Position numbers and translations under genes: made by a program. From Pararhodobacter zhoushanensis (lineage in GTDB: Bacteria; Pseudomonadota; Alphaproteobacteria; Rhodobacterales; Rhodobacteraceae), in assembly GCF_003990445.1 (NCBI RefSeq), contig NZ_REEZ01000006.1, forward strand, positions 124,001-188,000: a stretch of 64,000 nt of DNA, given 5' to 3'. The notes under the pieces are model-generated. The model worked only from the letters and a program-made list of their open reading frames with translations. It did no database searches and had not been told where the DNA came from. Positions 2,044 to 58,614 of the stretch are shown one piece after another. Position 1 is the first letter of the stretch. Each line of letters starts with the position of its first letter.

Positions 2044-3294
2044 TCACCCGACAACCACCGCCGTCTCCAGCACCGCGTGCAACAACACATCCGTGCCCGC
2101 CGCCGCCCAGTCCTTGGAAATCTCCTCGGCCTCGTTATGCGACAGCCCATCGACACACGGACACATGATCATCGCCGTGGGTGCCACGTCATTGATCCAG
2201 CAGGCGTCGTGCCCGGCGCCCGAGACAATATCCATATGGCTGTACCCCAGCCGCTCCGCCGCCCGCCGCACCGCAGACACACAGCCCTCGTCAAACGCGG
2301 GCGGATCGAACTGCCCGACGATCTCGGCCGAGAATTCCACACCGATATCCGCGCAAAGCTGCGGCGCGCGGGCCATCAGCTCGTCAACCATACCGTTGAG
2401 TTTGCTCAGGATATGCGTGCGCATGTCGATGGTGAACACCACCTTGCCGGGGATGATGTTGCGCGAGTTCGGATAGACGTCGATATGCCCGATCGCCCCC
2501 ACCGCGTTCGGCTGGTTCTTCATCGCGATCTCGTGCACCAGCTCGGTGACCAGCGCCAGGCCGCGCCCGGCGTTCTTGCGCATCGCCATGGGCGTCGAGC
2601 CGGTGTGGCTTTCCTTGCCGGTTACCGTGCATTCGATCCAGCGCAGGCCCTGCCCATGGGTCACCACGCCGATATCCTTGCCCTCGGCCTCCAGAATCGG
2701 CCCCTGCTCGATGTGCAGCTCGAACAGCGCGTGCATCTTGCGGTCGCCGACTGTCTCGGTGCCCTTCCAGCCGATCCGTTCCAGCTCGTCGCCAAAGCGC
2801 TTGCCCTTGGCATCCACCCGGTCATTGGCCCAGTCCAGCGTGTGCCGCCCCGAAAACACCCCCGAGGCCAGCATCGCCGGGGCAAAGCGCGTGCCTTCTT
2901 CATTGGTCCAGTTGACGATGACGATGGGATGCTTGGTCCGGATGCCAAGATCTTCCATCGTGCGCACCGCTTCCAGTGCGCCCAGCACCCCCAGCACGCC
3001 GTCGTATTTGCCGCCCGTGGGCTGGGTGTCCAGATGGCTGCCCATATAGACCGGCAGCGCGTCGGGGTCGGTGCCCGGGCGGGTGGCAAACATGTTGCCG
3101 ATCTGGTCGACCCCCATGGTCATTCCCGCCGCCTCGCACCAGCGCTGGAACAGCGCGCGGCCCTCACCGTCTTCATCGGTCAGCGTCTGGCGGTTGTTGC
3201 CGCCGGCAATACCGGGGCCGATCTTGGCCATGTCCATCAGGCTGTCCCACAGCCGGTCAGGGTTAATGCGCAGGTTTGCGGCGGGGGCGGTCAT
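2044..3294 (-). CDS. Zn-dependent N-carbamoyl amidohydrolase (beta-ureidopropionase type, M20 family)
   Basis: 416 aa cytosolic hydrolase of the allantoate/N-carbamoyl-amino-acid amidohydrolase group; in this context it should convert N-carbamoyl-beta-alanine to beta-alanine, CO2 and ammonia, the third reductive pyrimidine step. Visible family motifs are GSHLDTQPTGGKYDG (metal ligand His and Asp), NEEGTRF, HIEQGP and the dimerisation-domain segment KESHTGSTPM. The start at 3294 follows AAGGAA; the 29 codons upstream are not typical. It is the first gene of the minus-strand operon and divergent from two TetR genes across a region with a RutR-like operator. Allantoate as substrate is an alternative, but the neighbouring hydA favours pyrimidines. 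Confidence 0.88.
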   Translation of the reverse strand: MTAPAANLRINPDRLWDSLMDMAKIGPGIAGGNNRQTLTDEDGEGRALFQRWCEAAGMTMGVDQIGNMFATRPGTDPDALPVYMGSHLDTQPTGGKYDGVLGVLGALEAVRTMEDLGIRTKHPIVIVNWTNEEGTRFAPAMLASGVFSGRHTLDWANDRVDAKGKRFGDELERIGWKGTETVGDRKMHALFELHIEQGPILEAEGKDIGVVTHGQGLRWIECTVTGKESHTGSTPMAMRKNAGRGLALVTELVHEIAMKNQPNAVGAIGHIDVYPNSRNIIPGKVVFTIDMRTHILSKLNGMVDELMARAPQLCADIGVEFSAEIVGQFDPPAFDEGCVSAVRRAAERLGYSHMDIVSGAGHDACWINDVAPTAMIMCPCVDGLSHNEAEEISKDWAAAGTDVLLHAVLETAVVVG

Positions 3295-4816: not shown

Positions 4817-5018
4817 GAGCAGGTGGCGGCGCTCGCCCCCATCGAGGGGGCTCGCGCCGCGCGGGGGGCGCTGCCCCCCGACCCGGGCCGTTCCGGCCCG
4901 CCCCCCGGGATAGTTCAGGCATAAAGTTGGTTAACAGAACCCTAACGCCCAACTTTATGCTGCAAATATCCTCGGGGGGTGAATTCGCGACAAGCGAAGA
5001 GGGGGGCTGAAAGCCCCC
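4817..5018. repeat. composite palindromic intergenic element with TTAA-type apex
   Basis: Perfect 12-base arms GCATAAAGTTGG (4919-4930) and CCAACTTTATGC (4949-4960) enclose TTAACAGAACCCTAA, a one-mismatch TTAA-N7-TTAA box. Outer arms are GGATAGTT (4908) and AAATATCC (about 4964). Next come TGAATTCG and a hairpin GGGGGGCT/AGCCCCCC (5001-5019), whose end touches the rlmJ stop codon. Upstream are further GC-rich inverted repeats around 4850-4905. It lies between convergent genes, so a bidirectional terminator role is plausible. Confidence 0.75.
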
Positions 5019-55014: not shown

Positions 55015-55080
55015 TCATCATCTTGTCACAAATACTCGACGGGGGTCCGGGGGTGTCAAACCCCCGGCGCGCGCCACGGG
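55015..55080. repeat. variant intergenic element (CAAATACTC type)
   Basis: CTTGTCACAAATACTCGACGGGGG followed by CGGGGG/CCCCCG inverted repeats in the gap between the MoxR and VWA genes. It matches variants near 50435-50480 and is probably a diverged relative of the AAATATCC element. Confidence 0.45.
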
Positions 55081-55094
55081 CGGGCGGCCCGCTG

Positions 55095-56348
55095 ATGCAG
55101 TACCCAGACCTCCCCCTGCCCGAAAACCCCAAGCTGGTCGAAAACCTCACCCATTTCGCCCGCGCCCTGCGCAAGGCCGGGCTGCCGGTGGGACCGGGCC
55201 GGGTGATGACGGCGATCGAGGCGGTCGAGGTCGCCGGGTTCACCTCCAAGCCTGATTTCTACTGGACCCTGCACGCCGTCTTCGTGTCCCGCCCCGAGGA
55301 ACGGCAGGTCTTCAACCAGATCTTCCGCCTCTTCTGGCGCGACCCGCGTTACATGGAGCACATGATGGCGCTCTTGCTGCCCACGGTGCAGGGCGCGCAG
55401 GATGACACACCCGCCGCGCCGGGGACCAAACGCGCGGCGCAGGCGCTGCTGGACGGGGTGATCGAGCCGCCGCCCCCACCGCCCGAGGATGAGGAAACGA
55501 CCGAGATAGAGATCGACTCGACGCAAACCGCCTCGACCGAGGAACGCCTGCGCCGGCTCGATTTCGAGCAGATGTCAGCCGAGGAAGTCGCGCAGGCCAA
55601 GCGGATGCTGGCGCGGCTCTCGCTGCCGGTCAAACCCCTGAAAACCCGCCGCCTTTCCCACGATCCCACCGGCCAACGCGCCGACTGGCGGCGCACGCTG
55701 CGCGCCTCGATCCGCACGGGTGGCGAGATCAACGCCATCGCCCGGCGCAGCCCCGGCACGCGCTGGCCCGCCCTGGTGGTGCTGTGCGATATCTCCGGCT
55801 CGATGTCGGATTATTCCCGCATGGTCCTGCATTTCGTCCATGCCGTCGCCAACCGGCAGGGTCAGGGCTGGGCCCGCGTGCACGCGTTTACCTTCGGCAC
55901 CCGCCTGACCAACATCACCCGCCACCTGCGCGCCAAGGATGCCGACGCTGCGCTCAACGCGGCGGGGCACGAGGCACAGGACTGGCAGGGCGGCACGCGG
56001 ATCGGCGCCTGCCTGCACGACTTCAACCGCGACTGGTCACGCCGGGTGCTGGGTCAGGGCGCGGTGGTGTTGCTGATCACCGACGGGCTGGAACGCGATG
56101 ACCCCGCGCTGCTGGCGCATGAGATGGAGCGCCTGCATCTGTCGGCCAAGCGGTTGATCTGGCTCAATCCGCTCTTGCGCTGGGACGGGTTCGCGCCGCG
56201 CGCCCAAGGCATCCGCGCCATGCTGCCCCATGTCGACACCTTCCGCGCCAGCCATTCGGTTGAGTCGTTGCAGGCGCTGGCGCAGGCGCTGTCCGACCCG
56301 CGCGACCACGGCGAAAAAGCGCGCCTGATGGCCCTGTTGGCCCGCTAG
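55095..56348 (+). CDS. CoxE-like VWA-domain protein
   Basis: 417 aa. N-terminal helical region (VENLTHFARALRKAGLPVGP), an acidic Pro/Glu-rich linker at about residues 120-145, and a C-terminal VWA domain with a standard MIDAS (LCDISGSMSDYSRM) and LLITDGLERDD. Together with the preceding MoxR gene it forms the CoxDE-type chaperone pair. The ATG at 55095 is taken as start; a TTG farther upstream lies in repeat sequence. Confidence 0.87.
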   Translation: MQYPDLPLPENPKLVENLTHFARALRKAGLPVGPGRVMTAIEAVEVAGFTSKPDFYWTLHAVFVSRPEERQVFNQIFRLFWRDPRYMEHMMALLLPTVQGAQDDTPAAPGTKRAAQALLDGVIEPPPPPPEDEETTEIEIDSTQTASTEERLRRLDFEQMSAEEVAQAKRMLARLSLPVKPLKTRRLSHDPTGQRADWRRTLRASIRTGGEINAIARRSPGTRWPALVVLCDISGSMSDYSRMVLHFVHAVANRQGQGWARVHAFTFGTRLTNITRHLRAKDADAALNAAGHEAQDWQGGTRIGACLHDFNRDWSRRVLGQGAVVLLITDGLERDDPALLAHEMERLHLSAKRLIWLNPLLRWDGFAPRAQGIRAMLPHVDTFRASHSVESLQALAQALSDPRDHGEKARLMALLAR

Positions 56349-56484
56349 GTTTTCGAGCTGCGCCTAATTTGCGCGCAACAGACCGGCAATCTTAAGGGAA
56401 AATTCAGACGTTGCGCTAAAGATGTGACGGATTGACACATATTCGTGCGCAGATCTTGGACTTCGCCAGTGAAGCGCATAGGTG

Positions 56485-56590
56485 AGCGTCAGAGCCGGGA
56501 TCCTCCCTCCCTGGCTCTCCCCGGGCCCTCCCCCGGGTGGTAGAGTGGCCGCCGCGCATCCTCCCCGTCGCGGCGGCCCCAAACCCCCAA
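56485..56590 (+). ncRNA. candidate small RNA with three CCUCC-loop hairpins
   Basis: Three successive hairpins: AGAGCCGGG/CCTGGCTCT (56491-56518, loop ATCCTCCCTC), CCCGGG/CCCGGG (56520-56537, loop CCCTCC) and GGCCGCCGCG/CGCGGCGGCC (56547-56578, loop CATCCTCCCCGT). Each loop exposes CCUCC, complementary to Shine-Dalgarno sequences, as in Rhodobacter CcsR and rhizobial CUCCUCCC RNAs. CTTG (56455) and CATAGGT (56477) form a possible RpoH-like promoter; TTGACA occurs at 56432. No U-run follows, so the 3' end is uncertain. Confidence 0.6.
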
Positions 56591-56772
56591 CCACTCCTGT
56601 TTCAGCCCCGGTGCAGCGCGGTCACGTTAAGATGACCTCGCAATAAAGCGTCATCATTTCAGCCTGTTAGCCCCTGTTCAGCTCGATCACTGACGGCCTG
56701 ACAGACGAAACGGCGGAACGTTTCCGGCGCATGGGCCGTTTCCTCTCCAACACAGGATGAGTCGGAGTCCCT

Positions 56773-58614
56773 ATGAAACGCAGTCTGTCCACCACCACCG
56801 CCCTCGTCACCAGCTTCGCGCTGGCCGTCCCCATCACCTTTCCGCTGAGCGCGCAGGAAGTCTCTGGCAGTGCCGAGGCCTCCGGCTTTGTGTGCGACGA
56901 CTCGTTGAGCGCCGAGGAGTGCGCAGCGGCCGAAGCCGAAGCGCAGGCGCAAGGAGGTCAGGACGAGGACGAGGGTGTGCTCGACTCGATCGGTGAGGCG
57001 GCAAATGGCGCGCTCGAAAGCGCCAGCGAAGCCATTGGTGGGCTGTTGGGCGGCGCTGAAGAAACCGCCGATGACGCGGCGGATTCGACCGGCGAGGCCG
57101 TCGGCAACGCCGCAGAGGCCACGGGCGATGCCATCGATTCCGCCGCTGAAGTCACGCAAGACGCCGCTGAAGCGACCGGTGAAGCGGTTGACGAGGCTGC
57201 CACAGCCACCGGCGACGCGGTTGAGCCCGCGCTCGACGCGACCGAAAACGCTGCCGAGGGTGCTGTCACCACCGCCGAAGATCTGGCCCAGCAGCTTGAA
57301 AGCCAGTCGGAAACCGGCGGCGCAGACGCAACCGTAGAGGCCGATGTCACGACCCAGACTGAGGCGCAGTCCGAACCCGCCCCCGCCAGCGGCGATGACA
57401 CCGTTGTCTCGGCCCAAGGCGATGAAGCTCCGGCCACAGCCCCCGCTGAAACGCAAGAGCAAGCCCAGACCGAAACGCCCCCCGCAGCCGACCCTTCCGC
57501 TGAAGCCCAAGGCGATCTGATCGTCGAAGGTCCGTCCGAGGCTGCGATGGAAGCCGCGACCGGACAGGCCGACGAGAGCATGGCCACCTCGGGCGATGCC
57601 ACCGTGGTTGACGAAGTGACCGAAACCGTCACCGAAGAAAACGCCCGCAGCTCGGATCAGGATTTCGCCCCGGCGCAATCCAACGCCCAGGCCGATGCGC
57701 AGGCGAATGCTGAAGACGACAACGACACCCGCTTCCTGCAAGGCGCGCTGCTGGGCGCTGCCGGTGCTCTCGTTGTCGGCGCACTGCTGAACGGCAACCG
57801 TGAGGTCGTCAGCACTGCCCCCGACCGCGTTGTCGTGCGTGACCAGAACGGCAACCTGCAGGTGCTGCGCGACGATGACGCGATCCTGCGCCAGCCCGGT
57901 GCCGAGGTTGTCACGCGCAATTACTCGGACGGCTCGGCCCAGACCATTGTCACACAGCGGGACGGCAGCCAGATCATCACCGTCCGCAGTGCCGAAGGCC
58001 GCGTGATCAAGCGTGTGGTGGTCGCGACCAACGGCACCGAAACCGTGCTGTTCGACGATACCGTGCAATATGACCCGGTCGACGTGGCCACCCTGCCCGA
58101 GCCAGTGCGCAACACCGCGCCGCAGGTTGACCCCACCAACGAGGACGCTCTGCGCTCCGCGCTGATGCAGCAAAGCGCCGTGGGTCGCCGCTTCTCGCTG
58201 AACCAGGTGCGCCAGATCGACCGCGTTCGCTATCTGGCCCCGTCGGTGCAGGTTGAGAACATCACCTTCGCCACCGGCTCGGCGGCCATCTCGCCGACCG
58301 AAGCACAGGATCTTCTGGCGCTGGGTGAGCTGATGACCGGCCTCATTCAGGACAACCCCAACGAGGTCTTCCTGATCGAGGGTCACACCGACGCCATCGG
58401 CAGCGCCGTGTCGAACCTGACGCTGAGCGACCGCCGCGCGGAATCGGTGGCGCGGGCGCTGACGGAATATTTCGGCGTGTCCCCGGCCAATATGGTGCCG
58501 CAGGGTTACGGCGAAAGCGATCTGCGCGTCTCGACGCAGGAAGCCGAACGCGCCAACCGCCGTGTGGTTGTGCGCCGTATCACGCCGCTGCTGCAGGTCA
58601 CTCAGGCCAACTGA
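56773..58614 (+). CDS. OmpA-family outer-membrane-associated protein with Ala/Glu repeat region
   Basis: 613 aa. Signal peptide about 1-27 (cut near LSAQ). Residues 95-165 are Ala/Glu/Asp-rich with TG(E/D)A recurring at roughly 11-residue spacing, followed by a disordered acidic stretch to about 310, a hydrophobic segment (GALLGAAGALVVGALL), a beta-rich domain, and a C-terminal OmpA peptidoglycan-binding domain (ITFATGSAAIS, IEGHTDAIGSAVSNLTLSDR). It probably tethers the outer membrane or an exported partner to peptidoglycan. Confidence 0.88.
   Translation: MKRSLSTTTALVTSFALAVPITFPLSAQEVSGSAEASGFVCDDSLSAEECAAAEAEAQAQGGQDEDEGVLDSIGEAANGALESASEAIGGLLGGAEETADDAADSTGEAVGNAAEATGDAIDSAAEVTQDAAEATGEAVDEAATATGDAVEPALDATENAAEGAVTTAEDLAQQLESQSETGGADATVEADVTTQTEAQSEPAPASGDDTVVSAQGDEAPATAPAETQEQAQTETPPAADPSAEAQGDLIVEGPSEAAMEAATGQADESMATSGDATVVDEVTETVTEENARSSDQDFAPAQSNAQADAQANAEDDNDTRFLQGALLGAAGALVVGALLNGNREVVSTAPDRVVVRDQNGNLQVLRDDDAILRQPGAEVVTRNYSDGSAQTIVTQRDGSQIITVRSAEGRVIKRVVVATNGTETVLFDDTVQYDPVDVATLPEPVRNTAPQVDPTNEDALRSALMQQSAVGRRFSLNQVRQIDRVRYLAPSVQVENITFATGSAAISPTEAQDLLALGELMTGLIQDNPNEVFLIEGHTDAIGSAVSNLTLSDRRAESVARALTEYFGVSPANMVPQGYGESDLRVSTQEAERANRRVVVRRITPLLQVTQAN

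Follow-up and report, generated by a model that had tools for sequence, protein, structure and literature searches.

The stretch of DNA analysed here, called the window (64,000 nt from Pararhodobacter zhoushanensis), probably carries at positions 56487-56581 of the + strand a stand-alone gene for a trans-acting anti-Shine-Dalgarno small RNA (sRNA), whose expression would be stress-driven. Comparison of related genomes shows, at the level of sequence, a conserved + strand RNA under selection, which can be arranged as three hairpins, the first and third with CCUCC in the loop. On our best reading, made by analogy, this RNA would work like NfeR1/alpha-r14 and CcsR, yet it is not strictly a member. 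The features of the locus are as follows.

55023..56348, + strand: VWA/CoxE-like gene, upstream neighbour (PF05762, E 2.8e-67)
56455..56459, + strand: CTTGG, presumed RpoH-like -35 element (invariant alignment columns)
56477..56482, + strand: CATAGG, possible -10 element that varies among relatives (sequence reading, weakly conserved)
56487..56581, + strand: predicted sRNA gene of ~95 nt, ends approximate (covariance model R1; 94/95 identical in the nearest relative)
56491..56518, + strand: hairpin 1, AGAGCCGGG-atcctccctc-CCTGGCTCT, loop AUCCUCCCUC (sequence, fold, hairpin scan)
56520..56537, + strand: hairpin 2, CCCGGG-ccctcc-CCCGGG, loop CCCUCC (sequence, fold, hairpin scan)
56547..56578, + strand: hairpin 3, GGCCGCCGCG-catcctccccgt-CGCGGCGGCC, loop CAUCCUCCCCGU, GC-rich, the last of the three (sequence, hairpin scan)
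56715..56740, + strand: GGAAC-N17-CGTT, EcfG-type promoter-like site before ompA and outside the RNA (pattern match)
56773..58614, + strand: OmpA-family gene, downstream neighbour (PF00691, E 2.4e-19)

A cluster of three hairpins with CCUCC loops

The VWA gene stops at 56348 and ompA starts at 56773, which leaves a gap of 424 bases, and the hairpin cluster begins ~140 nt 3' of the VWA stop, on the same strand. The first-pass annotation had described three adjacent hairpins with CCUCC loops in this gap, and direct reading of positions 56491-56578 (+) bears this out. Hairpin 3 is not followed by a U-run in the window sequence, and there is no clear terminator there. When the ORFs of 25 aa or more within the gap were compared by eye, none proved common to the loci beyond the near-identical pair formed by the window's genome and its nearest relative.

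The predicted fold of positions 56440-56620 is more stable than those of most shuffled sequences (z -2.51), with equally stable shuffles in 2 cases out of 200. A 97-nt RNA beginning just 5' of hairpin 1 has the three hairpins as its minimum-energy fold, with mean unpaired fractions of 0.91, 0.56, 1.00 and 0.98 for its four CCUCC sites. We then defined CCTCC hairpins as at least 6 unbroken pairs enclosing a loop with CCTCC, using 200 dinucleotide shuffles of the window as the control. The window contains eight of them (seven on the + and one on the - strand), compared with a shuffle mean of 23. Nevertheless, it has one cluster of three within 110 nt, which none of the 200 shuffles produced (151 reached one hairpin in that span and 49 reached two). 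CCTCC itself is much rarer in the window than dinucleotide shuffles predict (51 matches on both strands versus 175 expected), and 4 of those 51 matches are packed into 63 bases at the hairpin cluster, which thus stands out.

Conservation of the RNA in the genus

We compared 19 genomes of the genus, including that of the window (G000) and its nearest relative (G018). Of 61 genomes, that of the window among them, 40 have a VWA match. An ortholog-like VWA locus is present in 17 of the 19 genus genomes, and seven of these loci have the order VWA - RNA - OmpA. Those seven copies served to train the covariance model R1; the window copy, as one of the training rows, scores 54.9 bits (E 1e-7). A covariance search in related genomes had been suggested as a check in the first-pass annotation. 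The R1 scan of the 19 genomes returned the seven training copies as the only convincing ones, one per genome and all at the same VWA/OmpA site. As R1 was built from these copies, the scan shows uniqueness and absence elsewhere rather than an independent discovery. No convincing match was found in 148 other genomes of the family, under stricter filters with which weak matches are lost; at E 0.1, the genomes passing among the 149 of the family (own included) were the window's own and G022, the latter with a match devoid of CCTCC. This 31-bit match (L159) and an extra 29.8-bit match in the window's own genome (L158) contain no CCTCC and were therefore taken as chance. A DNA search among 101 genomes yielded matches in two genomes besides the window's own. 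The match to hairpin 2 in one locus (L004, genome G042) was rejected; it is a lone hairpin on the strand opposite to the start of an adjoining SDR-like gene identified by eye. In the tree of VWA proteins (24 rows), the seven RNA-bearing loci form a single clade with support values of 96/91.

Between the window's genome and its nearest relative, the RNA has 1 mismatch in 95 positions (98.9% identity), whereas the third codon positions of the VWA gene are 87.8% identical (12.2% differing). The binomial probability of so few changes in the RNA at the VWA third-position rate is 6e-5. The stretch directly 3' of the VWA stop is 83.6% identical, and the two halves of the gap 3' of the RNA are 73.7 and 83.7% identical, with 21.5% of positions differing overall. 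The putative promoter stretch (56454-56486) is 90.9% identical, below the value of the RNA, with CTTGG and CATAGG unchanged. Separately, the block at 56401-56453, just 5' of that stretch, is 98.1% identical and contains TTGACA; it might perhaps be an operator or a second promoter.

Covariation in the stems and choice of strand

The seven sequences were aligned to the three-hairpin structure by padding by hand, and the rows were verified to be exact. Standard pairs occupy 98.7% of the 159 pair cells, and 12 of the 24 pairs are altered on both sides in a compensatory manner; 11 of these 12 belong to hairpin 1 or 2. All cells of the hairpin 2 stem are paired in the seven sequences, and the hairpin 3 stem is nearly fixed, with 8 of 12 pairs invariant. 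When the partners were slid by one to three columns as a control, pairing dropped to 40-50%. A fit by hand favours the structure, and conservation of the loops and spacing thus counts as much as pairing. Six of the sequences (all except G018) were also folded freely, and in five cases the minimum-energy fold consists of the three hairpins. In the sixth, that of G009, a different pairing takes the place of hairpin 1, whose CCUCC is 0.44 unpaired. The + strand has seven G-U cells and no A-C cells, and the minus strand would pair 150 of the 159 cells versus 157; the + strand is thus favoured.

These data bear on the possibility that the hairpins are chance palindromes or a mobile repeat. Although the GC-rich nature of the intergenic sequence and the weak extra R1 match of 29.8 bits in the window's own genome are compatible with that view, it is contradicted by the absence of such a cluster from the 200 shuffles, by the single convincing copy per genome, the extra match being devoid of CCTCC, and by the covariation in the stems. 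We therefore regard it as extremely improbable.

Loop motifs

The window loops read CCUCCCUCC, CCCUCC and UCCUCCCC, and loops 1 and 3 have AUCCUCCC in common. The expectation that the loops would be conserved in relatives holds for loops 1 and 3, which keep CCUCC in all seven genomes; it does not hold for loop 2, where CCUCC is found in only two, the window's genome and G018. In the other five, hairpin 2 has the loop GUCAGCC(A/C)AU or a short loop, the former being common to G016, G010 and G017 (loci L007, L010 and L011). This difference between loop 2 and the other two represents a natural experiment on loop redundancy.

The 9-mer typical of the family, CCUCCUCCC (DNA CCTCCTCCC), is present in none of the three window loops. 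Among the seven genomes, it occurs in hairpin 3 alone and in three of them (G016, G009 and G006). A looser search for a triple CCTCC pattern in the 19 genus genomes was uninformative, as all 19 match between 1 and 41 times each and the reversed control is an identical pattern.

A putative promoter upstream of the hairpins

RpoH promoters have the consensus CTTG...CCAT. A CTTGG motif is found 36-39 nt 5' of the base of hairpin 1 in all seven loci, with a background frequency in the window of ~1 per kb per strand, and a variable CAT or CAAT box can be discerned by eye ~6-11 nt 5' of hairpin 1. From these sequences we infer that the two elements together resemble an RpoH promoter. In Rhodobacter sphaeroides, an RpoHI/HII promoter with TTG at -35 and TAT at -12 has been described (PMC10673084), and CcsR RNAs are controlled by stress sigma factors including RpoHI/HII (PMC10253847; PMC8307010). 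Of the four rpoH-model matches in the window's genome, one exceeds the cut-off and two reach 259 and 274 bits; the fourth, in a 684-aa frame, is probably RpoD.

The position of the hairpins raises the question of whether they might be cut by RNase E from the 3'-UTR of the VWA mRNA, with a function that would still be anti-Shine-Dalgarno. They are co-directional with the VWA gene and start ~140 nt after its stop, there is a precedent in CcsR, which is cut from the ccaF1 transcript (PMC10253847), and hairpins in Gemmobacter are likewise located 3' of a VWA gene (see below). Nevertheless, both the promoter-like CTTGG at near-constant spacing in the seven loci and the highly similar block 56401-56453 on its 5' side argue against this processing origin, which we consider unlikely. 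Transcription of the sRNA gene from its own promoter is our preferred reading.

Relationship to known anti-Shine-Dalgarno RNAs

The Rfam scan of the window detected nothing at gathering thresholds. In a lax scan, ar14 (RF02344) spans all three hairpins with 17.7 bits versus a gathering threshold of 58.8, and CcsR1 (RF02791) reaches 15.8 bits versus 65.3; the other seven of the nine lax matches, to microRNA, lncRNA and snoRNA families, look like chance. Among five Pararhodobacter-type relatives scanned, the best ar14 score is 30.1 bits (L075; gathering 58.8).

Rhodobacter sphaeroides belongs to the same bacterial family as the host of the window, and the CcsR1-4/RSs0680 RNAs resemble the window RNA in their CCUCC hairpin loops and in their occurrence in that family; an RpoH promoter would be a further point in common, the one of the window RNA being putative, with its variable -10 element. 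Cuckoo RNA family/CIN1 loci, as reportedly defined by Reinkensmeier and Giegerich in 2015, consist of 2-4 adjacent hairpins with anti-Shine-Dalgarno loops and variable stems, and by this definition the window RNA is similar to them. In contrast, it has neither the exact CCUCCUCCC motif nor a DUF1127 neighbour, and the CIN1-like array of the genome is located elsewhere (L067, see below). In R. sphaeroides, the ccaF1-CcsR locus is transcribed from an RpoHI/HII promoter, with CcsR located 3' of the DUF1127 gene ccaF1 and cut from the joint transcript (PMC10253847), and RS0680a has two stem loops with an anti-Shine-Dalgarno motif in each (PMC3927594). Relative to these descriptions, the window locus has three hairpins instead of two, lacks a DUF1127 gene and has no CCUCCUCCC in its three loops.

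The alpha-r14 sRNAs are described, in the portions of the literature available, as having three hairpins with variable stems and an unpaired anti-Shine-Dalgarno motif in the loops (PMC10746234, PMC7143759). The window RNA shares with them the three adjacent, variable-stem hairpins with anti-Shine-Dalgarno loops. The same portions of these two sources name no DUF1127 link for alpha-r14, and there is none at the window locus. However, in those accounts the alpha-r14 loops are all identical, CCUCCUCCC, whereas the window loops differ, and the NfeR1 promoter is of the RpoD type, unlike the RpoH-like element that we propose for the window RNA. Among published architectures, the three-hairpin one of alpha-r14/NfeR1 is as close as that of CcsR, if not closer.

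The first-pass annotation had taken the CCUCC loops as the hallmark of alphaproteobacterial sRNAs such as CcsR and suggested that this RNA may be a separate member. The comparison supports an RNA gene separate from the DUF1127-linked locus, but the family hallmark is CCUCCUCCC, and with that motif in none of the three loops, strict membership fails. In the partially accessible literature on CcsR, cuckoo RNA, NfeR1 and DUF1127, we saw no stand-alone RNA of this kind in Rhodobacteraceae, the key family papers being outside the search, and a literature search for Pararhodobacter together with sRNA found nothing. With the window RNA, this kind of RNA would include a locus of Rhodobacteraceae that is free of DUF1127 and has a looser loop motif.

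A second, DUF1127-linked locus in the same genome

In agreement with the initial claim that no DUF1127 gene precedes the hairpins, their neighbours code for VWA_CoxE and OmpA proteins, and the six DUF1127 matches of the genome are on other contigs. Locus L067 of the same genome (C1:693006-696107) has, at positions 1366-2030, a DUF1127 gene (PF06568, E 9.7e-12) with an array of CCTCCTCCC hairpins behind it. Based on these sequence features, L067 is a locus of the ccaF1-CcsR/CIN1 type, and the window RNA is thus additional to it. Arrays resembling that of L067 are present in at least six genus genomes among the matches listed (G002, G003, G007, G009, G010 and G016). L067 scores 44.5 bits with ar14 (E 5.7e-5) and 40.6 bits with CcsR1 (E 1.6e-6), both under gathering. 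Given that a locus with both a DUF1127 gene and CCUCCUCCC loops stays below them, a score under the Rfam threshold is not fair evidence against a locus in this group. Neither the window RNA nor L067 reaches Rfam gathering, and such RNAs may thus be under-counted.

A rather unlikely scenario is that a unit of the DUF1127-CcsR-type array became an independent, motif-relaxed gene, giving Pararhodobacter two parallel RpoH-driven translation brakes. If true, the brakes with and without a DUF1127 RNA-binding protein would be a natural test of what the protein adds.

CCUCC hairpins in Gemmobacter and the link with ompA

A hairpin scan of 80 loci flagged nine, five of the Pararhodobacter type, two from Gemmobacter and two (L127 and L145) that were dropped because each has just one hairpin, a weaker one, at 550-710 nt downstream. 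The Gemmobacter sp. E21 locus (L080) has four CCTCC hairpins at positions 2970-3140, 3' of the VWA gene. In that of G. aestuarii (L103, positions 4870-4965), one strong CCTCC hairpin is followed by TTATCTTTTTT. On its 5' side, inspection by eye shows one hairpin lacking CCTCC and a weak one of four pairs that contains it. XdhC is encoded next at both loci (74 and 71% identical, respectively). No OmpA match was detected in the two stretches, that of L080 ending inside XdhC. R1 scores 24.0 bits (E 0.12) for L080 and yields just a 13.9-bit piece on that strand for L103, and both loci are placed outside the seven-locus clade on the VWA tree; their hairpins may be orthologs of the window RNA or independent placements. 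L080 also has a sub-threshold match to the Burkholderia anti-hemB RNA (27.6 versus 49.5 bits).

The location before an OmpA-family gene, pointed out in the first-pass annotation, is correct as regards position, but the association looks incidental in view of the two Gemmobacter loci with XdhC instead. This matters for another explanation, in which the hairpins belong to the ompA mRNA as a 5' leader acting in cis, their loops sequestering or responding to the ompA ribosome site or acting as an attenuator. Consistent with a leader, the RNA precedes a co-directional ompA gene at each of the seven genus loci, the window has no clear terminator, and the predicted pairing of the hairpin 1 loop with the ompA start region (-14.7 kcal/mol) is about equal to that with a consensus Shine-Dalgarno sequence (-13.2). 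However, the spacing between the RNA and ompA ranges from 109 to 272 nt across the seven loci, and CCUCC hairpins precede XdhC, not OmpA, in Gemmobacter, which speaks against a leader. Furthermore, a promoter-like site is located between the RNA and ompA. GGAAC-N16/17-CGTT is the pattern of EcfG-type (general stress) promoters; it has a single match in the window and precedes ompA in six of the seven loci, the exception being G016. As NepR was also detected in the genome of the window, ompA may have its own general-stress promoter. We thus regard the leader hypothesis as quite unlikely and favour a separate sRNA gene.

Proposed function and candidate targets

We propose that the RpoH-type promoter would drive the sRNA under heat or oxidative stress and that the transcript would begin at the base of hairpin 1. 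The CCUCC of loops 1 and 3, and here also of loop 2, would pair with the Shine-Dalgarno sequences of many mRNAs, and this pairing could block 30S binding and be followed by decay, on the model of NfeR1 in Sinorhizobium. The sRNA would act beside the DUF1127-CcsR-type array of the genome. NfeR1 blocks the ntrB start region through its anti-Shine-Dalgarno loops, as shown with loop mutants (PMC10746234), and transport genes make up most of its predicted targets (PMC7143759). The loops might instead serve as a decoy, binding a protein such as CcaF1/DUF1127 or Hfq, or another RNA, rather than the ribosome sites of mRNAs. The participation of CcaF1 in CcsR maturation (PMC10253847) and the six DUF1127 matches of the genome would fit such a role. 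In contrast, the motif in the loops is complementary to ribosome sites, and we consider a decoy very unlikely relative to trans-acting pairing with mRNAs.

GGGAGGAU, the complement of AUCCUCCC, is found 2-9 nt before an ATG at 24 sites in the genome, compared with one site for the reversed-pattern control. Candidate targets were scanned for the 19 sites with frames of at least 150 aa, leaving out five with frames of 8-52 aa. For the plain Shine-Dalgarno control, AAGGAGG, 30 of the 46 sites were taken in listing order, and the scan covered the 16 among them whose frames reach 150 aa. Solute-binding proteins are encoded by 7 of the 19 GGGAGGAU genes versus 1 of the 16 control genes (Fisher p 0.047), an enrichment that is suggestive only, as solute-binding genes may simply favour that ribosome site. 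Solute-binding-protein mRNAs would be candidate targets, near the class named for NfeR1. The seven candidates comprise one SBP_bac_1, two SBP_bac_5, two TctC, one DctP and one NMT1_3 protein.
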